Assembly (NCBI GenBank): GCA_015272325.1
Contig: JACYLU010000017.1
Span: 62,001-126,000 of the forward strand
DNA: 64,000 nucleotides
Source: Synechococcales cyanobacterium C42_A2020_086
Lineage (GTDB): Bacteria > Cyanobacteriota > Cyanobacteriia > Elainellales > Elainellaceae
Direction: 5' to 3'
Made by a program: the position numbers and the translations under genes. Below are positions 37,244 to 51,928 of this stretch, piece by piece. The notes beneath the pieces are model-generated. The model did no database searches. It saw only the letters and a program-made list of their open reading frames with translations, and had not been told where the DNA came from. Each line of letters begins with the position of its first letter. The stretch's first letter is position 1.

Positions 37244-39910
37244 ATGGCGTTTCCCTTTCCTAGGTTCAATCGTGTCGCTCCGGCGGTTTCCTCAATGCAG
37301 TTTTCGTTGCGTGTGGTAGAGGAGGCTGAAACTGAACTGGGAACGCTGCTGACTAAATTAGATACCTATCGCTATGGATTGACCGCAGCCGAGTCCCGTC
37401 GGCGACTCAAGCGATATGGCTGGAATGATGTGACCCATGAAGCCCCGCTGCCGTGGTATCGGCAATTTCTCAAGTCCTTCAACAACCCCTTTGTCTATTT
37501 GCTACTAGGATTGGCCATTGCCGCGAGCTTGACCCGGCAACTTCCAGAAACCCTGGTGCTGCTGGGAATGGTTTTCTTGAGCGGAGTGTTGCGCTTTATT
37601 CAGGAATACCGCTCGACCCAAGCCGCAGCAAAACTATGGGCGATTGCTGGAGCCACTGCCCTGATTAGCCGCTATGACGATCTTGTCCCGCGGGAACGGC
37701 AACAGCGAGTGCCAATTCGCAAGCTAGTGCCTGGAGATATTGTGCATTTGTCAGCGGGCGATATGGTCCCTGCTGATGTGCGGCTGCTTCAAGCAGAACA
37801 TTTATTTGTCAGTCAAGCCATCTTGACCGGAGAATCCAACCCAGTGCAAAAGCACGATACGTTGGGCAGTCGAGTCGAGAAAATGGCGATTCGGTATCAC
37901 CAAACCAATGATCCCTTCCAGACCCCGACGGTCTGTTTCATGGGAACAACCGTGATTGGAGGTCGGGCCAAAGCCGTTGTGGTGGCTACAGGTAACCAAA
38001 CTTATTTGGGATCTCTGTCTCAGGCTATTGCCGGTAAACGGGCGCGCACAAGTTTTGAAATGGGAATTAATCGAGTCACCGGGCTGCTGTTAGGGTTTAT
38101 CGCGGTTCTGGTGCCGATTGTGCTGCTGATTAACAGCATCAATTATGACGATTGGAATGAGTCCTTCCTGTTTGCGATTGCGGTTGCGGTGGGTCTGGTG
38201 CCAGAGATGTTGCCTCTGGTGGTGAGTGCTAACTTAGTACGGGGCGCCACGGCCCTGTCTAAGCAAAACGTGCTGGTAAAACGGCTGGATGCCATGCAGA
38301 ATTTAGGCGCAGTCGATATCCTCTGTACCGATAAGACCGGCACCCTGACCCAAAATCATATTTCCCTGATGGAACCCGTAGGAATTGACGGGACGGTAAC
38401 AGAAGAGCCGCTGCGATATGCCTATCTCAATAGCTATCACCAGACCGGGATCCGCAATGCATTAGATGCCGCCATCTTGGAATGCAGAGCGTTGCCCGCT
38501 GAGTTGAATCCGGAAACCGCTCATGCCAAGTTAGGAGAAATTCCCTTTGACTTTGTGCGACGCCGATTGTCAGTTGTTGTAGAGCAGGATGGAGTGCCCT
38601 GGTTGATTTGCAAAGGCGCAGTGGCAGAAGTGATCACCCTTTGCACAACCGCCCAATGGCAGGGGCAAGTGGTTCCCCTAGCACCGACTTTGTATCAAGA
38701 AACGCTGCAACGGGTCCGTCAGCTTCAGGCAGATGGACTGCGGGTGCTGGCTGTTGCCTATCGCCGCTTCTCGGCACCCAAAGAAAGGTATAGCCCAGAC
38801 GATGAGGTTGACCTGACCTTAGTAGGCTATGTCACGTTTCTTGACCCCCCCAAAACCAGTGCCAAAGCAGCGATCACAGCATTGCAAGAGCACGGAGTGG
38901 CCGTCAAAGTGATCACGGGCGATGAGGAAACCATTACCCGGCGGATTTGCCAGGAGGTAGGAGTTGCGGTGCAGCAGGTCTACCTGGGTGCTAGCGTTGA
39001 GCGGATGACAGACGCCGAACTCGCGGATGCGGTGGAAGAAGCGACCATCTTTGCCCGCATGTCGCCTGCTCAGAAAGCTCGCGTGATCCGCATTCTCAAG
39101 CAGGCAGGACACGCAGTGGGCTACTTGGGCGATGGCATTAATGATGCTCTAGCCCTGCGCGATGCCGATGTTGGTATTTCCGTCGATACGGCTGCTGATG
39201 TTGCCAAAGAATCGGCCGACATCATTCTGCTGGAAAAGAGTTTGATGGTGTTGGAGCAGGGAATCATGGAAGGTCGCCGCACCTTTGGTAACCTAACCAA
39301 ATATCTCAAGATGGCAACCAGCTCCAACTTTGGCAACGTCTTTAGCGTCGTGGGAGCCAGTGCATTCCTTCCGTTTCTACCGATGCTGCCCCTGCAACTT
39401 CTGGTGCAAAACCTGCTGTATGACCTGTCGCAAATTGCTATCCCCTTCGACCGAGTGGATGCGACCTATCTCGCCAAGCCGCAAGCCTGGTCTGCATCGG
39501 ATCTGCGCCGCTTTATGCTGCATTTGGGGCCTGTCAGTTCTGTATTTGACTATGCCACCTTTGCTCTACTCTGGTTTGGCTTGGGAGCAACTACCGACGC
39601 CAATGCTGCTTTGTTCCAGTCTGGCTGGTTTGTGCAAGGCTTGCTCTCCCAAACCCTGATTATTCACCTGCTGCGAACCGAGAAAATTCCCTTCCTGCAG
39701 AGCACAGCAACGCTGCCGGTATTGGTCATGACCGGACTGGTCATGGTGATTGCCCTGTTGCTGCCCTTTACCTCTCTGGGAGCCACTCTGGGGTTAGTGC
39801 CACTGCCGGCGATCTATTTCCCCTGGCTGATAGTGATTCTGGTTGGTTATGGCCTGCTGACCCAGATAGTCAAAATGGCGTACATCCGCCGATTTAAAGC
39901 CTGGCTGTAA
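37244..39910 (+). CDS. mgtA: MgtA-type (P3B) magnesium-translocating P-type ATPase
   Basis: An 888-residue P-type ATPase. The phosphorylation motif DKTGTLT is at D363, TGES is present (AILTGESNPVQK) and GDGIND is at about 630. The membrane block VAVGLVPEMLPLVVSANLVR, then GATALSKQNVLVKRLDAMQN, and the C-terminal LLVQNLLYDLSQIAIPFDRV, are diagnostic of MgtA/MgtB rather than calcium or heavy-metal pumps. MgtA imports Mg2+ when it is scarce. It is followed on the same strand, after 233 bp, by an HMA-EamA fusion gene. mgtE and an mgtC family gene lie within 14 kb. Confidence 0.9.
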   Translation: MAFPFPRFNRVAPAVSSMQFSLRVVEEAETELGTLLTKLDTYRYGLTAAESRRRLKRYGWNDVTHEAPLPWYRQFLKSFNNPFVYLLLGLAIAASLTRQLPETLVLLGMVFLSGVLRFIQEYRSTQAAAKLWAIAGATALISRYDDLVPRERQQRVPIRKLVPGDIVHLSAGDMVPADVRLLQAEHLFVSQAILTGESNPVQKHDTLGSRVEKMAIRYHQTNDPFQTPTVCFMGTTVIGGRAKAVVVATGNQTYLGSLSQAIAGKRARTSFEMGINRVTGLLLGFIAVLVPIVLLINSINYDDWNESFLFAIAVAVGLVPEMLPLVVSANLVRGATALSKQNVLVKRLDAMQNLGAVDILCTDKTGTLTQNHISLMEPVGIDGTVTEEPLRYAYLNSYHQTGIRNALDAAILECRALPAELNPETAHAKLGEIPFDFVRRRLSVVVEQDGVPWLICKGAVAEVITLCTTAQWQGQVVPLAPTLYQETLQRVRQLQADGLRVLAVAYRRFSAPKERYSPDDEVDLTLVGYVTFLDPPKTSAKAAITALQEHGVAVKVITGDEETITRRICQEVGVAVQQVYLGASVERMTDAELADAVEEATIFARMSPAQKARVIRILKQAGHAVGYLGDGINDALALRDADVGISVDTAADVAKESADIILLEKSLMVLEQGIMEGRRTFGNLTKYLKMATSSNFGNVFSVVGASAFLPFLPMLPLQLLVQNLLYDLSQIAIPFDRVDATYLAKPQAWSASDLRRFMLHLGPVSSVFDYATFALLWFGLGATTDANAALFQSGWFVQGLLSQTLIIHLLRTEKIPFLQSTATLPVLVMTGLVMVIALLLPFTSLGATLGLVPLPAIYFPWLIVILVGYGLLTQIVKMAYIRRFKAWL

Positions 39911-40143
39911 CCCGCTTCCTGAATCTTGCCTAACTCAGTACAATCATTGCACTGCTTCTTGTTTACATTACTCCTAATGGGTTTCGTTTGGGTTTAGACG
40001 GGGGTTTGAGCAGTTCACTCATTGAACCCGTTGCACAACCCGTTGCAAGAATAAACAAGTGACGTTACCTAGACCCCTGAGCACCCGAACCTGCGAGTTT
40101 CTTGCTCGCGTTTTTGACTCATTGCATTCTGCGGCAACACCCC

Positions 40144-41331
40144 ATGCGCGATGATACTACCCTGTCCGTCATTGTGGTTCATACCACTGCCAGTCGCTCT
40201 CGGTTTCGCATTCCTCGCCTAGCCGAAGATCCAGTGTTTATAGCCCATCTACTCCAGCAAACCTATGCCCTAGCAGGCATCACTGCCGCACGAGTCAATT
40301 CCCTAGCTCGATCCCTGATTGTGCATCATGAGCCTAGTGTACGAATTGCAGACCTGCACTCCCGGATCACGGAGGCTACAAAGCGGGCGGCTACCCTCTC
40401 CCTGTCGGGGCAACTGCCCTCACACTCCTGGGAATCTGAAGTAGAACTGTCTGCCTCAGGAGCATGGCCAGCTATTGGTTGGGTCCTCCTGGCAACGGGT
40501 AGCTACGCTACTTTGCAGGCAACCATTCGCTTGATTGCTGGGAGCCTCCACCCCTTTCAAATTGTGTTCTTAAACAATCTGTTTGCAGTTGGGTTGCTGC
40601 TGCCCGTGTTGACTGTTGATGGTCTGAGCACCACCAAACTGCCGCTCCATGGGCTACGAGCAATTCTGGATGCGGGAGCGTCGTTACTGTTGGTATCGGG
40701 GCTGAGTTTGCTGCCCCTAGCCCAGGTCAATGCCTTGGGCGCCACCACCCCCCTGTTTGCGATGATGGGTGCCTCTCTCGTTTTGGGAGAAGCCTTACGC
40801 CCCCAACGGTGGATTTCTCTCCTGCTGGGAATGGTTGGGATGCTGGTGATTGTGCGTCCCGGTTTAGCCGGAATGGGTCTAGGTGCACTGCTGACATTGG
40901 GTGGCTCGATCGCGTTTGCAGGGGTGGTGCTGCTGCTCAAGGTTCTGTCTCGCACAGATTCCAGCCTGACGATCATTGCCTACAACGCCCTTCTGCTTAC
41001 CCCCCTGACCTTTATTCCAGCACTCTGGGTGTGGACTGTTCCCACGCTAGGGGAACTAGCTCTATTGACCGCGGCGGCTGCCCTGGGTTTAGTGGGTCAA
41101 ATCTGTATGTTTCAGGCGCTAGAACAAGCAGATGCCACTACCGTATTGCCTGCGGATTTTGCTCAGTTTGTTTGGGCGAGTGTCTTGGGCTTTGTGCTGT
41201 TCCAAGAAGTGCCTGATCTGTGGACTTGGCTAGGGGGACTGCTGATTTTTGCTGGAGTCATTGGTGTGGCAAATTCAGAACCCGAGGAACCCAAGGAGCA
41301 AGCTTGCTTACTGCTGCTGGAGAGTGCTTAG
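40144..41331 (+). CDS. EamA/DMT transporter fused to an N-terminal HMA-like domain
   Basis: About 395 residues from the ATG at 40144; a TTG at 40102 is an alternative. Residues about 5-95 (VVHTTASRSRFRIPRLAEDP, then AGITAARVNSLARSLIVHHE) align by eye with the N-terminal domain of the P-type ATPase at 43.8-46.5 kb (IVHRTTHRIRIRIPRLRNDP, RMNAFAESIVVEYRP). This is the HMA_2-type ferredoxin-like fold without the CxxC metal pair. Residues about 110-380 have about 10 membrane segments with two EamA repeats (QVNALGATTPLFAMMGASLV, then GMLVIVRPG). DMT proteins export small metabolites; the substrate here is unknown. I know of no described EamA protein with this domain. Its 3' end overlaps the convergent ATPase-like gene by 24 bp. 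Confidence 0.85.
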   Translation: MRDDTTLSVIVVHTTASRSRFRIPRLAEDPVFIAHLLQQTYALAGITAARVNSLARSLIVHHEPSVRIADLHSRITEATKRAATLSLSGQLPSHSWESEVELSASGAWPAIGWVLLATGSYATLQATIRLIAGSLHPFQIVFLNNLFAVGLLLPVLTVDGLSTTKLPLHGLRAILDAGASLLLVSGLSLLPLAQVNALGATTPLFAMMGASLVLGEALRPQRWISLLLGMVGMLVIVRPGLAGMGLGALLTLGGSIAFAGVVLLLKVLSRTDSSLTIIAYNALLLTPLTFIPALWVWTVPTLGELALLTAAAALGLVGQICMFQALEQADATTVLPADFAQFVWASVLGFVLFQEVPDLWTWLGGLLIFAGVIGVANSEPEEPKEQACLLLLESA

Positions 41332-43539
41332 TGAATCATGCAGATGAGGGTCTGGAGCAAACCAGAAGGGGCGCAGAGCGTTTAAAACCGCGAGTAAATT
41401 CACGGCGTTGTTGATCACGACCACTAGAATTGGATCGAGAATCAGCAATATTCCCAAGGTCGTTGCCCCTAGGTGCGGCAAGGTAATCAGGGCAATATTT
41501 TGTTGCACTAGGGCCATTGCTTCATCGGCGATGTTGAACGCCGTCACTAACGTCAGGAGATTTCCGTAGGGCAGTCGAATGTCTGCGATGCGCTGAATCG
41601 ACGGGCAAGAGTGATGCCTGCCTACAGCGATATCCGCATAGCAGAGGGCAGGATAGTCATCCATACCTTCGCCCATGTAGACCACCGTATGCCCCTGCTC
41701 CTGAAGACGGCAAACAAAGGCTTTTTTGTCTTCCGGGGTGAGTTCGGCGAAAACGGCACTGGGGTCTAGCCCAACTTGAGAAGCAATCGCGGCTGCCACG
41801 TCGGAGGCACCCCCCGTAACAACATACACCGTCAATCCGCGCTGCTGTAGGTAAGACAATACCGCTCGACTGTCGGGATGGACGCTGGCACAGCAGATGA
41901 TCTGACCCATGAGCTGCCCGTCTACAGCGATGTAGATGTACCAATAGCCTTGATACTCTCCATCTCGGGCTTGAGAGGGAGGGGCGACCGCGTCAGGAAA
42001 AGCAATGCCAGCCTGATTCAAATAACTACAGCTACCTACAAGAACCCAGTAACCATTGACCTGAGCGGAAATCCCCAGACCTTGACTTGTTTGAAGTGCA
42101 CAGGCTTGGCTGAGCGGAATGGTCAACCCTCGCTGTTGGGCGTAGGCTGTAATGGCTTGGAACACCGGATGCTGAAATTTGGCTTCACACTGCCCCGCTG
42201 CTGCCGCTAGTGCCAATAGCCAGTTTGCTGGGTCGGAGCCTGGGGAAGAGATGGGCATGTTTGAGTGAAGGTCTGAGTGAAGGATCTCAATCGCCACCAC
42301 CGATAGCTCTTTGCCAGTTAGGTTGCCTGTTCGTGCAAATACCACCGTATCGGCTTGGGTCAATAGCTCAAACACTCGCCCCGAGCGGATGTAGATATTT
42401 TGCTGCTGAGCATAGAGCATCATAGAAAGAATAGCTGTGGGCGCAGAGAGTCGCACCCCGGTCACCAGATCCAATTGGAGGGGGGCTAACGCCCGTTCCA
42501 GGTTCTGGGTCCATAACAATAAACCGCCCGAAAGCGCTAAAGTCGGCAAAATCAGAGTCTCACCGACGATTTTGGCGTAGTCACTCAGCTGCGTTTGGTG
42601 CAGGGGAGCCGCCTCTGCCAACAGCACCTCCTGAGCATATTGCGTCTGATCGCCCAGAGACTCTACCCGTACCCGGATCTGTCCATCCATGACCGTACAG
42701 CCTGCTGGAATCGGGTTGCCCATGCCTACGGGTAAGGGAGCCGGTTCACCCGTCAGGATGCTGAAATCTAACCAGGCTTCTCCTTCCAAAATGAAACCAT
42801 CGACGGGACAAGTATCCTCTGCAATCAGCAGAATTTGGTCGCCGGGGCCCAACTCGGACAGTGGCAGCACTTGCGGTTGTCCCTCTCGGATCAGCCGCAC
42901 TCGCTGTACATCGGGAAGGAGGCTAGTTGAGGGTATGGCTGGTGCCCTCTCGTAGGTCGACTCCTGGAGCCAGTCGCCGGTTTCAGCGAGAACCAGATCC
43001 AGATTGGGTGCGACAAAATCTCCAGTCAACCCGTGAAAAATCGTCCAGAGGGATTCCAAAATTTCTTCATCCACTTTCCCTTGAGCTAAATCCTGACGAG
43101 TGCGCTCTAGAACTGGAAAAGCCGCCACTAGAGTAACCATCCCTAAGACTATGGGAGGAATTGCCAATTCCATCGCTCCTGCCAGGACGGCCAAACCCAA
43201 GCCCAATGCAGGTAGAGCAATTCGCTGGAGCAACTCGAGTTCTGATGGTTTGCTCGACGGCTTCGCAGGGTCAGGAGGGGGCGGCAATGGCCCTTCTAGC
43301 GGAACCTGCTTCATAAACTGCTGCACCTGCGCCAGGATAGCCGTTGCTGTGGATTGAGCCGGTGTGTATTCAATAATCAGAGAGCAAGCCGGATAGTTGA
43401 CTCGAATTTGCCTGAACCCAGGATGAGCAAGCAGATGCGTTTGCACCGCCTCCGCCCAACCAGACGCATGCCGCATCCCAGCAATTCTCAGTCGTAAGCG
43501 TCCCGGGATCTGGTGAACAATCTGGATCTCGCCGCTCAT
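41308..43539 (-). CDS. P-type ATPase homologue with a mutated phosphorylation site (pseudo-pump)
   Basis: About 743 residues from the ATG at 43539; a TTG at 43551 is also open. The N-terminal HMA-like domain (IVHQIPGRLRLRIAGMRHAS, then RVNYPACSLIIEYTP) is followed by a proline-rich linker and a P1B-type core. TGE (about 263-265) and HP (about 457-458) are kept. The DKTGTLT motif reads ARTGNLT (about 402-408; the codon at 42334-42336 is GCA for Ala), TGD reads TGG, and GDGxND reads GEGMDD. CPC is replaced by SAP. The frame is intact, so the protein is probably made but cannot form the aspartyl phosphate. It sits right after a small DUF454-like gene and downstream of an intact paralogue. Confidence 0.85.
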   Translation of the reverse strand: MSGEIQIVHQIPGRLRLRIAGMRHASGWAEAVQTHLLAHPGFRQIRVNYPACSLIIEYTPAQSTATAILAQVQQFMKQVPLEGPLPPPPDPAKPSSKPSELELLQRIALPALGLGLAVLAGAMELAIPPIVLGMVTLVAAFPVLERTRQDLAQGKVDEEILESLWTIFHGLTGDFVAPNLDLVLAETGDWLQESTYERAPAIPSTSLLPDVQRVRLIREGQPQVLPLSELGPGDQILLIAEDTCPVDGFILEGEAWLDFSILTGEPAPLPVGMGNPIPAGCTVMDGQIRVRVESLGDQTQYAQEVLLAEAAPLHQTQLSDYAKIVGETLILPTLALSGGLLLWTQNLERALAPLQLDLVTGVRLSAPTAILSMMLYAQQQNIYIRSGRVFELLTQADTVVFARTGNLTGKELSVVAIEILHSDLHSNMPISSPGSDPANWLLALAAAAGQCEAKFQHPVFQAITAYAQQRGLTIPLSQACALQTSQGLGISAQVNGYWVLVGSCSYLNQAGIAFPDAVAPPSQARDGEYQGYWYIYIAVDGQLMGQIICCASVHPDSRAVLSYLQQRGLTVYVVTGGASDVAAAIASQVGLDPSAVFAELTPEDKKAFVCRLQEQGHTVVYMGEGMDDYPALCYADIAVGRHHSCPSIQRIADIRLPYGNLLTLVTAFNIADEAMALVQQNIALITLPHLGATTLGILLILDPILVVVINNAVNLLAVLNALRPFWFAPDPHLHDSLSTLQQQ

Positions 43540-43554
43540 TAAAATGGTCAATCC

Positions 43555-43713
43555 TCAGTCCACTAGAGCCAGCTTGAAGCAGATGGCAGACAATATCAGG
43601 AAGGGTGTACCTGGAAAAAACGGCAAAATCAGGCCTAGCACACCTATTCCAAAACTGATCGTACCTACCGTGAGCAGTGCAGCTTTGCGAAATGCGTTGA
43701 GTACACAATCCAT
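43555..43713 (-). CDS. Small DUF454 (YbaN)-like membrane protein
   Basis: 52 residues, with GGAGAA about 6 nt before the ATG at 43713. VGTISFGIGVLGLILPFFPG, then TPFLILSAICFKLAL resembles the first half of DUF454 proteins (LGxxLPxLPTTPFLLLAaxCF). It has two hydrophobic stretches. The stop at 43555-43557 is only 15 nt before the start at 43539 of the next gene (4 nt before the alternative TTG), so the genes are probably translationally coupled. The family normally continues for another 50-60 residues, so this is either a small member or a truncated one. The ribosome site and spacing support that it is translated. Confidence 0.6.
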   Translation of the reverse strand: MDCVLNAFRKAALLTVGTISFGIGVLGLILPFFPGTPFLILSAICFKLALVD

Positions 43714-43809: not shown

Positions 43810-46539
43810 CTACGCTTCCCTGCGCCGTGCCTGCCAGGCCTCTCCAGCGCGCCGTGCAGGAAAAGTATGTACAGGAATGGGTTTAGCTCGTATCGGACGA
43901 AAGACCTGAGAAGACGCTTCATAGGTCCAGGCGACACCGTCCGGATCACGGTCACGGCTCCACTGGCCAAAGTTCTGCTGCTGTTTGCGGCGAGAGATGG
44001 TTTGGGGCGAAGTTCCTAGTCGAGTGGCCAGCTCTTTCTGGATCAAGGTATCGAGTCGGGAGACAGGAAGCGAAACTGCCTGAATCGCGGATGCAGATAT
44101 GGTAGGTGTCCGGGGTCGGTCTTTTGCTGTCTGAACCTCGCCCCATTCCGATTGAAAGGATTGCTCTTGATCGGTTGTCGTGAGAGAGATGACCGCCGGT
44201 TGTGATGCTATCATCGAGCTGAACCCATCCATCGTCACTTGACTGGGTCCCAAGAGTGGGCGGAGACCGTTGAGTTCTGCCAGAATGGCTGACCCATTAT
44301 TGATCAAGATAGCCAGAACAGGATTGAGCGCAAAGAGGACTCCTGCCAGCACCGCACTCAAGTTCGGCACAATCACCATCGCAATGTTCTGAGTAACGAT
44401 TTCCATTGCATGTTCGGCAATGTGCAGAGCCTGAAGCAGTTGCGTCAGCCGGTCGTCCATTAGCACCACATCGGCTGTTTCTCGGGCAATGCCGCTGGCG
44501 GCCGCAAAGGAAATAGAAACATCGGCATATGCTAGAGCGGCGGAGTCGTTGATGCCATCTCCACAAAAGGCAACGGTCTTGCCACTCTCATGCAGGGCTT
44601 GCACCACCTCTACTTTGCGCTCTGGGAACGCCTCTGCATAGACGTTGCCTCTGGGAATGCCTAAATCGTCCGCAATCGCATTGGCAATGCGGGCTTCATC
44701 GCCACTCAGGATGTAGACCTCAATGCCGCGTGCCTGTAGGGCTTGTACCACAGTGCGGCTTTCCGCTCGCAGCGGATCGCTATATAGAATTACCCCCATC
44801 AAGTCACCATCAATGGCGACATAAACTAGCGAGTGCGGCCCGGATTCCAAATCCGGATAGCGATTGTGCAGTTCTTGTACTGGGATCTGCCATGTGGTCA
44901 TCATCCGATGGCTGCCAACTAGCACTGTGCGCCCATCAATGTGCGCTTTGACCCCTAGCCCGACGTGATACTCCCATTCATCGCACGATCGCAAAGATAG
45001 CTGCAGGTTGCGAGCATGGCGAATGATTGCCTCTGCTACTGGATGCGTCAAACCTTGCTCGGCGGTTGCTGCCATTGTTAGGAGGTGAGTTTCAGAGACA
45101 TCCGATCTCAGCAGCTTGATGCCAGTCACGCCGGCTTGTCCTTGAGTCAGGGTGCCGGTTTTGTCAAAGACAATCACATCGACATCGCACAGCAGTTCGA
45201 TTGTGCGTCCGGTGCGAATCAGAATACCGTTGCGAGCGGCATAGGTGAGAGCAGACAGTACAGTGGTTGGCACGGAGATGCGAATCCCGGTGCCCACATC
45301 GAGTGTCAGAAGTGAAATAGCGCGACCGACATCGCCACTAACCGTGCCGACTATCGCCGAGAGCAGCAGCGTCGGAGCAACGAGCTGGTTAGCAATTCTC
45401 GTCGCAAAGTTAGAAACGCGCGTATCGTGAACTGGAGCAGACTGCATAAGATTGGCAATCACCCCCGCTCGGGTATTGGCTCCAATGCGTTCCGCGACAA
45501 TACACAGATGACCGTCTACCAGGATCGTGGAAGCGAAGACCTCTTCCCCTTTTACTCGCGTCACAGGGATGGATTCCCCAGTGAGTTTGCACTGATCCAC
45601 TAGTCCTGCTCCCCGCACAATCGTGCCATCCACTGGAATCAGGTCCCCTGGGTAAACTATCACGCGGTCGCCCACAATCACTTGGTCGATGGGAACGTGC
45701 AACTCACGCCCATCCCGCTCCACAATCGCCTCGGTTCCCAAACAGCTCAGCAGGTCCAAAGAAGCGCGGTTGCTGCTGCGAGCAGTAATGTCTCGAATGA
45801 CCTCCCCACCTTCTACCATCCCTAGCATCAAGGCGGGTGCAAAGAAGCTGCCCTGAATCGTATGTAGAGTAATGGCTAGACCATCTAACAGATCAATTGA
45901 CAGTTCTCGATCGCGGAAGAGAGCAGAAAAGGCTCGATCGTACACTGGACGAGCTGCAATTAGAATGACCGCTCCAACCATGAGAGCAGGCAGCGGCACT
46001 TCGATCATCGCCGCAAAGCCCAATAGCAAACCCAATCCCGGTAAGCCCAACCGCTCCCATACATCCACCCCTTCAGACTCGGATTCATCCTGGGACTCTG
46101 GATTTAGAGCCAGAACGGCCTCTAAGCTGACCTCGGATGCTCGCTGAATGGCTTGAACAATCTGAACCTCAACGGCTGCAACTGCCTCTGGACTGATCTC
46201 GGGGCGATATTCCACCACAATCGACTCTGCAAAGGCATTCATTCGAATTTGATCTATCCCCTCAAAGCCTTGAATCAGGCTGCGCAGTGTCTCGGCATAT
46301 TCCGGGTCATTCCGCAGTCGAGGAATGCGAATACGAATGCGATGCGTGGTGCGATGAACAATCCTATACTCAACTAGGTATTCAACCAGAGATGGTGAGA
46401 CCTCAAAATGGTTGTCAAGTTGCATAGAAGAACCTAGCTTGGAAGCAACTGCTACCAAGGGTTGAGATTCAGAAGCGTCAGAGACCATTTTCCTCGGGAT
46501 GGGCCAATGGTGGATGACCGTATGGCTATTAGAGAACAT
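43810..46539 (-). CDS. P-type ATPase with HMA-like N-terminus and HTH-like C-terminal tail
   Basis: Up to 909 residues; a start at 46488 (GAGGAAA close upstream) is an alternative. Order: HMA-like domain without CxxC (about residues 55-115); membrane helices; actuator with TGES (319-322); helix with ISVPTT (421-426) where P1B pumps have CPC; D459-KTGTLT; HP (499-500); GDGIND (660-665); final helices. Residues about 825-880 then carry DTLIQKELATRLGTSPQTIS, RRKQQQNF and SRDRDPDGVAWTYE, a helix-turn-helix-like unit followed by an RDPDGxAWxY motif seen at the ends of other cyanobacterial proteins. The catalytic machinery is complete. The transported ion is unknown, since the metal-site motif is atypical. 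It is downstream of DUF5132. Confidence 0.87.
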   Translation of the reverse strand: MFSNSHTVIHHWPIPRKMVSDASESQPLVAVASKLGSSMQLDNHFEVSPSLVEYLVEYRIVHRTTHRIRIRIPRLRNDPEYAETLRSLIQGFEGIDQIRMNAFAESIVVEYRPEISPEAVAAVEVQIVQAIQRASEVSLEAVLALNPESQDESESEGVDVWERLGLPGLGLLLGFAAMIEVPLPALMVGAVILIAARPVYDRAFSALFRDRELSIDLLDGLAITLHTIQGSFFAPALMLGMVEGGEVIRDITARSSNRASLDLLSCLGTEAIVERDGRELHVPIDQVIVGDRVIVYPGDLIPVDGTIVRGAGLVDQCKLTGESIPVTRVKGEEVFASTILVDGHLCIVAERIGANTRAGVIANLMQSAPVHDTRVSNFATRIANQLVAPTLLLSAIVGTVSGDVGRAISLLTLDVGTGIRISVPTTVLSALTYAARNGILIRTGRTIELLCDVDVIVFDKTGTLTQGQAGVTGIKLLRSDVSETHLLTMAATAEQGLTHPVAEAIIRHARNLQLSLRSCDEWEYHVGLGVKAHIDGRTVLVGSHRMMTTWQIPVQELHNRYPDLESGPHSLVYVAIDGDLMGVILYSDPLRAESRTVVQALQARGIEVYILSGDEARIANAIADDLGIPRGNVYAEAFPERKVEVVQALHESGKTVAFCGDGINDSAALAYADVSISFAAASGIARETADVVLMDDRLTQLLQALHIAEHAMEIVTQNIAMVIVPNLSAVLAGVLFALNPVLAILINNGSAILAELNGLRPLLGPSQVTMDGFSSMIASQPAVISLTTTDQEQSFQSEWGEVQTAKDRPRTPTISASAIQAVSLPVSRLDTLIQKELATRLGTSPQTISRRKQQQNFGQWSRDRDPDGVAWTYEASSQVFRPIRAKPIPVHTFPARRAGEAWQARRREA

Positions 46540-46736: not shown

Positions 46737-47087
46737 CTACTCGGAAATAATTTCAACGGCTCTCGGCGGAGTGGGTTGCTCTTGCACCTTTGCTCGGGCT
46801 GCTCGATGCTCATCCTTCGCCTCAGCCACGAGATCATTAAAGGATTCTTGCGCGTCTGCAAAGGTAGACTGTATCCCTTCAATCACATCCATTCCCCAGA
46901 TCAAAGCACTTTTTGTCGCCTCCCGTGCCGACTGGGAAACCGATTCTCCTACTCCATTCAGCTTCTCGTCTTCTTTCACCCAATTGCCCACCGTATCCAC
47001 GACTGGTGCTAACAGGACTGCCCCAACCCCAACCGCTAGCGCAGTAATCGGCTCGATTCCCAACAACAGAGCTTCTAGTTCAAACAT
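46737..47087 (-). CDS. DUF5132 domain-containing protein
   Basis: A 116-residue protein from the ATG at 47087. FELEALLLGIEPITALAVGV, then GAVLLAPVVDTVGNWVKEDE gives one Gly/Ala-rich membrane segment, followed by an amphipathic helical half (ESFNDLVAEAKDEHRAARAK). DUF5132 genes occur beside HMA-type P-type ATPase genes in cyanobacteria, as they do here, so it is likely an accessory subunit or membrane adaptor of the pump. It is the first gene of the minus-strand operon. Confidence 0.8.
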   Translation of the reverse strand: MFELEALLLGIEPITALAVGVGAVLLAPVVDTVGNWVKEDEKLNGVGESVSQSAREATKSALIWGMDVIEGIQSTFADAQESFNDLVAEAKDEHRAARAKVQEQPTPPRAVEIISE

Positions 47088-47790: not shown

Positions 47791-48293
47791 CTGCATTTCT
47801 ATCGCAAGATCGACAAGATCATTTGCCGCCAGTGAGCTGTGAACGTGCGCTGTGCAAGCTCTTTGTTTGTATTCGCTTTTTGCTCACGGTTCATCAAGGC
47901 TGTGAGGAGTTTGATTTGAAAAACAGCGAAGGATTGAGCATAGGAATGAATTATTTCTGTTTCTCTATGCTTAGTCGCTTTCGTTTTATCGTGAAGTGAC
48001 AGCCTGATTGTCATTCGGTTTCCTTGTAATTTCTCATCATTCCTCCCTAATCTTTCCTGCTAGGCATCCGTTTCTGATGCCGAAATCTCTGATGCTGAAA
48101 TAGGCCGACCTCCGATGATTGCATTCGGACGTTTGACCTGACCCATTGGGCTACCTTTTTTCAGAATTGTCTCAAAGACTTACTTAGAAATCTGCCCAGT
48201 ATTGATTATTCGTTGATTGCGCTTTCACAGCTCTGCAATTCAATACTGTTCTGTCATTTACTGTTCATTTACTGTTATTTCAGGAGAAGACCA
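47791..48293 (+). other. Remaining mgtE leader
   Basis: 503 bp with no supportable gene. TCCGA-N9-TCGGA (about 48112-48130) is a possible hairpin and CCTTTTTT follows within about 30 bp, so a premature stop of transcription is conceivable, but the stem is weak. No M-box or yybP-ykoY signature was found. mgtE is preceded by GGAGAAG, an excellent ribosome site. Confidence 0.35.
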
Positions 48294-49670
48294 ATGGCTA
48301 TCAATCCTTTGAACGATCTGCTGGCGTATCCCAAAGCATTGGGAGCTGCTAAACTCACTGCAAATCAGCTCAGCATCTCTGAATTACTGCGGTCACTCCG
48401 CGAAATCGATCCCCATAAGCGAGTGTTGGCGTTCCGGCTGCTAGAGAAAGAGAAAGCGATTGCCGTGTTCGATGCCCTCTATCCTGATGAACAAGCTACT
48501 TTAATCCAGGGTATGACTGATCCGGAAATTTTAGTATTTCTGGAAGCGCTTGAACCCGATCAGCGAGTGCGGTTGTTTGAAGAGCTGCCGGCTAAAGTGA
48601 CTAAGCGCTTGATGAGTCAACTCAGCCCTGACTCTCACCAGGCAGTTGATTTGCTGCTAGGTTATCCCGAAGGTAGCGCTGGACGCCGTATGAGTCTGCG
48701 TTATCTAGCAGTCCGAGAAACAACCGCCGTGGATGCGGTACTCGCTTTGGTGCGGGAATCCTGCCTGCGAGACAATGAACTGGACATGATCTTTGTGATT
48801 GATCAGCAACGGTTCTATCGCGGCTTCGTTCGCACGGTGCGTTTGATGAAAGCCGACCCTGACCTGCCCATTGCACAGCTCATTGATGGTAGAGACATTG
48901 CCATCCCTGCTACAGCACCTGAAATGCAAGCAGTCCGTCTGCTTAAAGACTATGATCTGCCTGCTATTCCTGTGGTGGATAGTGAAGGCCGACTCGTGGG
49001 CGATATTGCCTTTGATGATGTGATTGATTTGATTGAAGAAGAAGCATCAGCTGCTGCCCTTGCTCAAGCGGGAGTCGGTAATCTGCTGGGTCGCGACCAA
49101 GCTTGGAGTGAGAAACTAGTTCGAGGACCCATCCGCTACGCAGTTCAGCTCCGAATCGCCTGTTTAATCATTACTCTGATTGGCGGCATGCTGGTGGGTG
49201 GGGTAATTCAAAGCTTTGAAGAAATCCTGGAAGCGGTTGTTGTAGTCGCCATTTTCATTCCAGTCGTGATGGATATGGGAGGCAATGTCGGTACGCAATC
49301 TACTACGGTTTTTGCACGGGGGCTAGCATGGCAGCATATCGATGTCCGGCATTATGGAACGTATCTGTTTCGAGAGCTTCGCATTGGTCTGATCATGGGG
49401 TTGATTCTAGGAGCGACTGGCGGAACCATTGCCTATGTCTGGCAGGGCGTTCCAAATGGCATCCCTCAACTGGGGCTAGCAGTCGGGCTTTCCTTGTTTG
49501 CGGTTGTTACGCTAGCTGCCGTTTTGGGTGCCCTATTGCCCTGGCTCTTGCTCAAACTAGGCTTTGATCATGGACCAGCGGCTGACCCATTTGTAACTAC
49601 GATCAAGGATTTCACCGGCTTGCTGCTTTACTTCTACTTGGTGAGTTGGCTGCTGGGCATTCAGGCATAA
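48294..49670 (+). CDS. mgtE: Magnesium transporter/channel MgtE
   Basis: A 458-residue protein from the ATG at 48294, chosen because GGAGAAG lies 7 nt upstream; an open frame farther upstream is hydrophobic but unrelated. The N-domain (about residues 25-130; VFDALYPDEQATLIQGM, then LFEELPAKVTKRLMSQLSPD) is followed by paired CBS domains (about 140-265) that sense Mg2+, and then five membrane helices. VVMDMGGNVGTQSTTVFARG and GPAADPFVTTIKDFTGLLLY are the channel motifs. The unusually long upstream region holds the candidate regulatory elements listed separately. Confidence 0.94.
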   Translation: MAINPLNDLLAYPKALGAAKLTANQLSISELLRSLREIDPHKRVLAFRLLEKEKAIAVFDALYPDEQATLIQGMTDPEILVFLEALEPDQRVRLFEELPAKVTKRLMSQLSPDSHQAVDLLLGYPEGSAGRRMSLRYLAVRETTAVDAVLALVRESCLRDNELDMIFVIDQQRFYRGFVRTVRLMKADPDLPIAQLIDGRDIAIPATAPEMQAVRLLKDYDLPAIPVVDSEGRLVGDIAFDDVIDLIEEEASAAALAQAGVGNLLGRDQAWSEKLVRGPIRYAVQLRIACLIITLIGGMLVGGVIQSFEEILEAVVVVAIFIPVVMDMGGNVGTQSTTVFARGLAWQHIDVRHYGTYLFRELRIGLIMGLILGATGGTIAYVWQGVPNGIPQLGLAVGLSLFAVVTLAAVLGALLPWLLLKLGFDHGPAADPFVTTIKDFTGLLLYFYLVSWLLGIQA

Positions 49671-51226: not shown

Positions 51227-51928
51227 ATGTCCTGGATTGAATTTACCCTTCGGCTGGGTGTTGCTCTCCTGCTGGGTTCAGTCGTAGGACTGGAGCGTCA
51301 ATGGCGACAACGCATGGCGGGATTACGCACTAGCGCTTTGGTATCAACTGGAGCGGCTTTGTTTGTGCTGCTATCAGTCATGACGCCAGAAGAGGCCAGC
51401 CCAACCCGCATTGCTGCTCAGGTGGTTTCTGGAATTGGCTTTCTGGCAGGTGGGGTGATCCTGCGCGAAGGAGCCAACGTCCGTGGGCTGAATACCGCTG
51501 CAACCATCTGGTGTGCTGCTGCAATTGGCTGCCTTGCTGGTTCAGGATGGTTCACACAGGCATTCATTGGAACGTTGGTTATCCTGGTTGCCAATATTTT
51601 GCTGCGCCCGATTGGCTACAGGATCAATCAGCAGCCGCTCAAAGGCACAGAGGTTGAATTGTGCTATCGCTGCAGTGTGATTTGCAGCAGCAAGCATGAA
51701 GCCCATATCCGAGCTTTGCTACTACAAGCGGTGAACCCAAGTCGGATGAGGCTGCGAGCGCTACACAGTGAAGATCTAGAATCAACTCCTGACAAGGTTG
51801 AAGTAGAGGCTGATCTGGTCACCCAAGAACGGGACGATGCATTTTTAGAGACGATTGTTAGCCGTCTGAGCTTGGAAACGGGGGTCAGCGCGGTGAGTTG
51901 GCAGATTATCGAAGAAGAATACGGTTGA
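51227..51928 (+). CDS. MgtC/SapB family protein
   Basis: A 233-residue protein. Residues 1 to about 140 carry about four membrane segments with the family motifs GLERQWRQRMAGLRTSALVS, then GIGFLAGGVILREGANVRGL and NTAATIWCAAAIGCLAG. Residues about 145-233 form an ACT-like cytoplasmic domain. MgtC proteins are linked to growth at low Mg2+ and to control of membrane ATP synthase in enteric pathogens; in cyanobacteria the role is not established. Its position near mgtA and mgtE supports a cation role. Confidence 0.9.
   Translation: MSWIEFTLRLGVALLLGSVVGLERQWRQRMAGLRTSALVSTGAALFVLLSVMTPEEASPTRIAAQVVSGIGFLAGGVILREGANVRGLNTAATIWCAAAIGCLAGSGWFTQAFIGTLVILVANILLRPIGYRINQQPLKGTEVELCYRCSVICSSKHEAHIRALLLQAVNPSRMRLRALHSEDLESTPDKVEVEADLVTQERDDAFLETIVSRLSLETGVSAVSWQIIEEEYG

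Follow-up and report, generated by a model that had tools for sequence, protein, structure and literature searches.

A conserved P1B-type ATPase homologue without the phosphorylated aspartate, encoded beside an intact P-type pump in cyanobacteria

The textbook P-type ATPase is a single-chain pump with one aspartate as its hallmark; to our knowledge, this phosphorylated residue is essential in all members characterised. A pairing of one catalytic with one degenerate nucleotide site is known from heterodimeric ABC exporters, whose dimerisation has been shown. Among P-ATPases, mycobacterial PacL proteins assemble the pumps into platforms; in the CtpC-PacL1 system and its kind, P1B6-like ATPases are encoded together with small membrane proteins of the PacL / DUF6110 type, and an HN motif in TM6 is named for the P1B6 ATPases (PMC9374683).

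The locus described here lies in a 64,000-nt stretch of DNA (the window) and encodes a P1B-type ATPase homologue without the catalytic Asp, called the pseudo-pump below. Its gene (41308–43539, minus strand) starts at an ATG and all 743 codons are open, as expected from the intact frame of about 743 residues reported in the first-pass annotation. Pfam detected E1-E2_ATPase (6e-24), HAD hydrolase (8e-13) and HMA_2 (5e-7) domains, the latter at the N-terminus (PF19991, 43312–43533, minus strand, 30.3 bits), and homology to P1B-ATPases is significant across the A, P and N domains and the membrane core. The pseudo-pump shares fold, domain order and the TGE, HP and GxG motifs with the heavy-metal ATPases CopA, ZntA, CadA and ATP7B. 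In contrast to these, it carries neither the phosphorylated Asp, nor the Asp of TGD, nor the CPC of TM4, its Mg-binding GDGxND motif is altered and its score with TIGR01525 (heavy-metal P-type ATPase) is 295 bits, below the model cut-off of 346, compared to 476 for the gene upstream.

Ala402 (codon GCA, 42334–42336) occupies the site of the phosphorylated Asp, within the sequence FARTGNLT. DKTGT is thus replaced by ARTGN, and a catalytic-motif test found no phosphorylated Asp. As judged by alignment, TGG replaces TGD (residues 575–577, 41809–41817) and GEGMDD replaces GDGxND (residues 623–628, 41656–41673), all on the minus strand like the motifs retained: TGE of the A domain (residues 263–265, 42745–42753) and HP of the N-domain ATP site (residues 457–458, 42166–42171). 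GLG (residues 487–489; GxG) and Lys605 of the P domain are likewise retained, together with the TM4 S-x-P and the TM6 NN, the latter standing where P1B6 ATPases have HN. The motifs had been described correctly beforehand in every detail checked (ARTGNLT with its GCA codon, TGG, GEGMDD, TGE and HP kept).

In the phospho-Asp column of the alignment, all 53 catalytic relatives carry Asp and all four members of the pseudo-pump clade carry Ala. Since Asp is invariant among the former, the change to Ala goes beyond chance. A sequencing error is an unlikely source of the Ala, as orthologues carry the same residue. The GDGxND change alone is not peculiar to the pseudo-pump, since GEGxND also occurs in several related pumps with DKTGT, including tandem partners in the window's own genome (G000-C8) and in G010, G142, G181, G224 and G289.

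Because an aspartyl-phosphate could not form, the pseudo-pump would be unable to pump by the P-type cycle. The earlier proposal that it is not a pump therefore seems sound as far as sequence can tell, the requirements of the cycle being missing with the Asp, TGD and GDGxND motifs all changed. The retained N-domain residues and Lys605, and the acid-rich character of GEGMDD, could be taken to indicate an ATPase that works through another residue or an unusual chemistry. However, three catalytic motifs are altered together and the Asp is invariant in relatives, so that we consider such activity extremely improbable.

An AlphaFold2 model of the pseudo-pump was built from a 7-row alignment (window proteins and related loci) and reached a mean pLDDT of 73 and a pTM of 0.54. 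In the PDB it resembled P1B-ATPases most closely (E 1e-36; TM 0.5), with ATP7B, CopA and ZntA as the best solved matches; among them is an ATP7B carrying Asp1027 to Ala (D1027A). The latter structure indicates that a P1B-ATPase with this very substitution can still fold. The fold of the pseudo-pump appears to be kept in the model, from which site details are not readable.

The next gene upstream encodes an intact P1B-type ATPase of 909 aa (43810–46539, minus strand), hereafter class B. Its motifs (DKTGTLT, TGES, SGD, GDGIND) are all intact and its TM6 reads NN, as in the pseudo-pump. Between the two ATPase genes lies a frame for a 52-aa DUF454-like membrane peptide (43555–43713, minus strand), matching the first third only of PF04304 (3e-9); a similar frame of 63 aa is present in genome G276. 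The first gene of the cassette encodes a PacL-like small membrane protein (46737–47087, minus strand), with copies 56% and 55% identical in the corresponding position of G171 and G276. As in CtpC-PacL1, a small membrane protein is encoded with a P1B-ATPase. The cyanobacterial cassette differs by the presence of a second, dead ATPase and by the NN of TM6 in both class B and the pseudo-pump; the HN motif is found, as in P1B6 ATPases (PMC9374683), in the catalytic relatives of a 20-row sister clade. The small protein also differs from PacL in its domain matches, with DUF1490 (the PacL domain) detected weakly in one copy (E 0.05) and DUF5132 in another (2e-6).

The order PacL-like gene, class B, small DUF454 and/or HMA_2 gene and pseudo-pump is common to the window, G171 and G276, on one strand, with the G276 cassette interrupted by one gene on the opposite strand. 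In G123, a PacL-like gene and class B are accompanied by a partner carrying GDSISD for GDGxND. Promoter and terminator scans for operon signals gave no more than shuffled sequences. Downstream of the pseudo-pump, a convergent gene for an HMA_2-EamA fusion (40102–41331, plus strand; EamA 3e-26, HMA_2 6e-4) overlaps it by 24 bases at its 3′ end. Genes for an MgtA-type ATPase (37244–39910), MgtE (48213–49670) and MgtC (51227–51928) surround the cassette and define a Mg transport neighbourhood. Together with a TM4 site devoid of Cys, these genes favour a hard divalent cation as the probable cargo, whether Mg, Mn, Fe or Ca. A link to ferrosomes (FezB) may also be considered, though the papers searched gave no information on it.

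Gene order and evolution point, with a chance that we put at about one half, to a role of the pseudo-pump, itself non-catalytic, as subunit or regulator of class B. The protein would remain folded in the membrane, would probably still bind ATP without hydrolysing it, given the retained HP, GxG and Lys605, and perhaps binds an ion through the TM4 S-x-P and TM6 NN. The PacL-like protein could act as a scaffold holding the pseudo-pump and class B in one complex, in which a non-hydrolysing regulatory or structural subunit would set the activity or stability of class B by nucleotide or ion occupancy. Such a pair would be analogous to the catalytic/degenerate pairing of heterodimeric ABC exporters, in an unrelated fold and with a dimerisation that we infer only.

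To trace the pseudo-pump in other organisms, orthologues were searched in 390 cyanobacterial genomes, by a scan of named genomes and by family, order and phylum searches. Among the 390 genomes, the close relatives are those of G171 (55% identity) and G276 (41%). The named-genome scan gave no match with the pattern of the pseudo-pump protein alone; with a three-sequence alignment, it gave a third orthologue (51% identity) in Pleurocapsales cyanobacterium LEGE 06147 and showed G276 to be the uncultured isolate I3-5_bin-680. The three motifs read FARTGTLT, TGG and GEGMDD in G171, FAKTGTLT, TSN and GEGIDD in G276, and FARTGTLT, TGG and GEGIDD in LEGE 06147. Ala is thus present in all three orthologues and none of them retains the Asp, the outcome on which the first-pass annotation had staked its reading. 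A recent loss of the Asp in one strain is rejected by the same loss in three other lineages. The Ala type is rare nevertheless (3 of the 390 sampled genomes). Family and order searches revealed no further Ala-type member, the phylum search added only G631, which keeps DKTGTLT, and plasmid records contained distant relatives only (at most 30% identity).

Two of the three orthologues are damaged near the 3′ end. In G171, an IS element is inserted after ‘QQNIALIT’ (L055:8381–9721), with the 9-base target duplication GTTGATTAC on both sides and the remainder of the gene beyond it. In LEGE 06147, a 5-base deletion shifts the frame at nearly the same place, and each of the two proteins is left without its last transmembrane pair. 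This damage is what speaks most strongly against a function needed by those strains. It also favours a decaying pseudogene, that is, a former pump under relaxed selection whose frame stays open by chance and for want of time, as do the rare and scattered distribution and a rate of evolution about twice that of class B (path 1.35 versus 0.69 between the window and G171). Several observations argue against such decay. The G171 damage is recent, since the target duplication is still intact. The loss is identical across lineages at 41–55% identity, with at least 680 codons open. About 40 further residues (e.g. W533, Y534, C549, D627 and H642) are invariant in the pseudo-pump clade and rare in relatives. 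Neutral change simulated over 686 codons, with 0.1 or 0.5 substitutions per site, produced 6 and 19 stops respectively, so about 6 or more stops would be expected in a frame that is actually open. Between the window and G171, pN (0.31) is much lower than pS (0.74), with dS saturated so that omega can only be stated as a kind of upper bound; the corresponding values for class B are 0.25 and 0.75. Decay is, in our estimation, improbable, and we consider ‘dead but conserved’ a well supported description of the pseudo-pump. The earlier claim of conservation holds for the Ala common to three orthologues and for the residues proper to the clade, and less so for the 3′ end, broken in two of three; pN and pS within the clade would agree with the ratio below 1 that it called for, as far as saturated dS permits.

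Conservation between the window and G171 is highest in the membrane part (TM3–4, 73% identity). This could suit a passive ion channel or uniporter, already proposed in the first-pass annotation, in which a pump would have turned into an ungated or ligand-gated pore after loss of the phosphorylation cycle. However, none of the sequence features tested marks a pore, and the cytosolic A, N and P domains are kept at 46–60% identity, beyond what a pore needs. We regard a channel as highly improbable.

Trees were built from 70 and 38 proteins. The four pseudo-pumps form one clade (support 100/100), nested in a ‘partner’ lineage (98/97) that is separate from class B. An AU test rejected a common group of these four with class B (p = 0.00014) and, with it, the idea that the pseudo-pump originated as a copy of the intact gene next to it. 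The window and G171 are sisters in both the class B and the pseudo-pump trees, though their genomes belong to different families, a pattern that would fit inheritance or transfer of the whole cassette as a unit. The partner lineage also contains class A pumps (e.g. G000 C8, 116.5–118.6 kb), which adjoin class B and carry GEGxND. In contrast to the pseudo-pump they keep DKTGTLT and TGD, and may therefore still be catalytic. Related pumps with DKTGT and GEGxND, perhaps still active, were recorded at loci L073, L074, L075, L077, L057, L027 and L163, six of them adjoining class B in the six genomes named above for tandem partners.

A second dead type belongs to this same partner lineage, and differs from the pseudo-pump in that the ATP-binding domain itself is missing. 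The copy in the window's own genome (720 aa; G000:C8:125942–128101, about 125.9–128.1 kb, or L028:6940–9102) has 32 residues in place of the approximately 156 of a pump N-domain, reads DQQT for DKTGT and TGV for TGE, and has no GDGxND. Across genomes, 26–40 residues replace about 156–176, the Asp position is often still Asp and TGE is lost in most. This N-less type was found in 18 of the 390 cyanobacterial genomes (that of the window and 17 others; loci L028 and L119–L137), with a PacL-like gene nearby in five. Close pairs gave omega values of 0.08–0.21 at dS 0.1–2.3, which shows that a pump unable to bind ATP in the normal manner is under purifying selection; these proteins are perhaps a stronger finding in their own right than the Ala type. 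A single origin of both dead types, as tested by grouping the N-less type with the pseudo-pump clade, was not rejected (p 0.26).

One or the other dead type is present in 20 of the 390 genomes. Class B accompanies it in all 20, compared to 29 of 390 overall, with related genomes counted; by genus, class B is found in 10 of 10 dead-pump genera versus 15 of 160 (Fisher p 1e-12, kinship being corrected to the genus level only). The partnership with the intact ATPase put forward at first is thus supported by association, through gene order in three genomes, agreeing window-G171 trees and co-occurrence in the 390 genomes. In LEGE 06147, the pseudo-pump has no class B beside it and the genome yielded no true class B gene; the best class B-like genes there (46–47%) fall in another clade of the tree. 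The class B partner may have been lost there. Alternatively, the pseudo-pump could act independently of class B, as a sensor or chaperone that binds ions or nucleotides, a use to which its HMA_2 domain, its membrane core and the residues of its ATP site, all preserved, would be suited. Against this, the LEGE 06147 copy is frameshifted, class B occurs in 20 of 20 dead-pump genomes sampled and three genomes preserve the order of the cassette. We hold independent action to be unlikely, though deserving attention, and retain a role as subunit or regulator of class B.

Extended to both dead types, this role would tentatively, and with a chance well short of even, describe a family of two-subunit cyanobacterial P-type pumps, each composed of catalytic class B and a non-hydrolysing P-type ATPase, either Asp to Ala with the ATP site kept or deprived of the whole ATP-binding domain, on a PacL-like scaffold. 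The P1B fold is known; the papers searched described neither a conserved dead P1B-ATPase branch, in two forms and linked to a functional pump, nor any bacterial dead or N-domain-less P-type ATPases, this partial coverage leaving out most subscription journals and not establishing priority. A fold kept after loss of the Asp or of the ATP domain would be a natural test of what it can do in the absence of the cycle, be it regulation, scaffolding or the sensing of ions or nucleotides, and a working pump with its dead partner offers a tractable pair for the direct study of heteromeric P-type ATPases.

An HTH-like C-terminal segment (LGVSPQTLSRRK...W...DPDGVAWxY), matched weakly by Pfam HTH models, is fused to class B, to N-less proteins and to small HMA_2 proteins. 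It occurs at the C-terminus of class B in the window (43810–46539), in L028, at L055:12075–12677 and in L154–L156.
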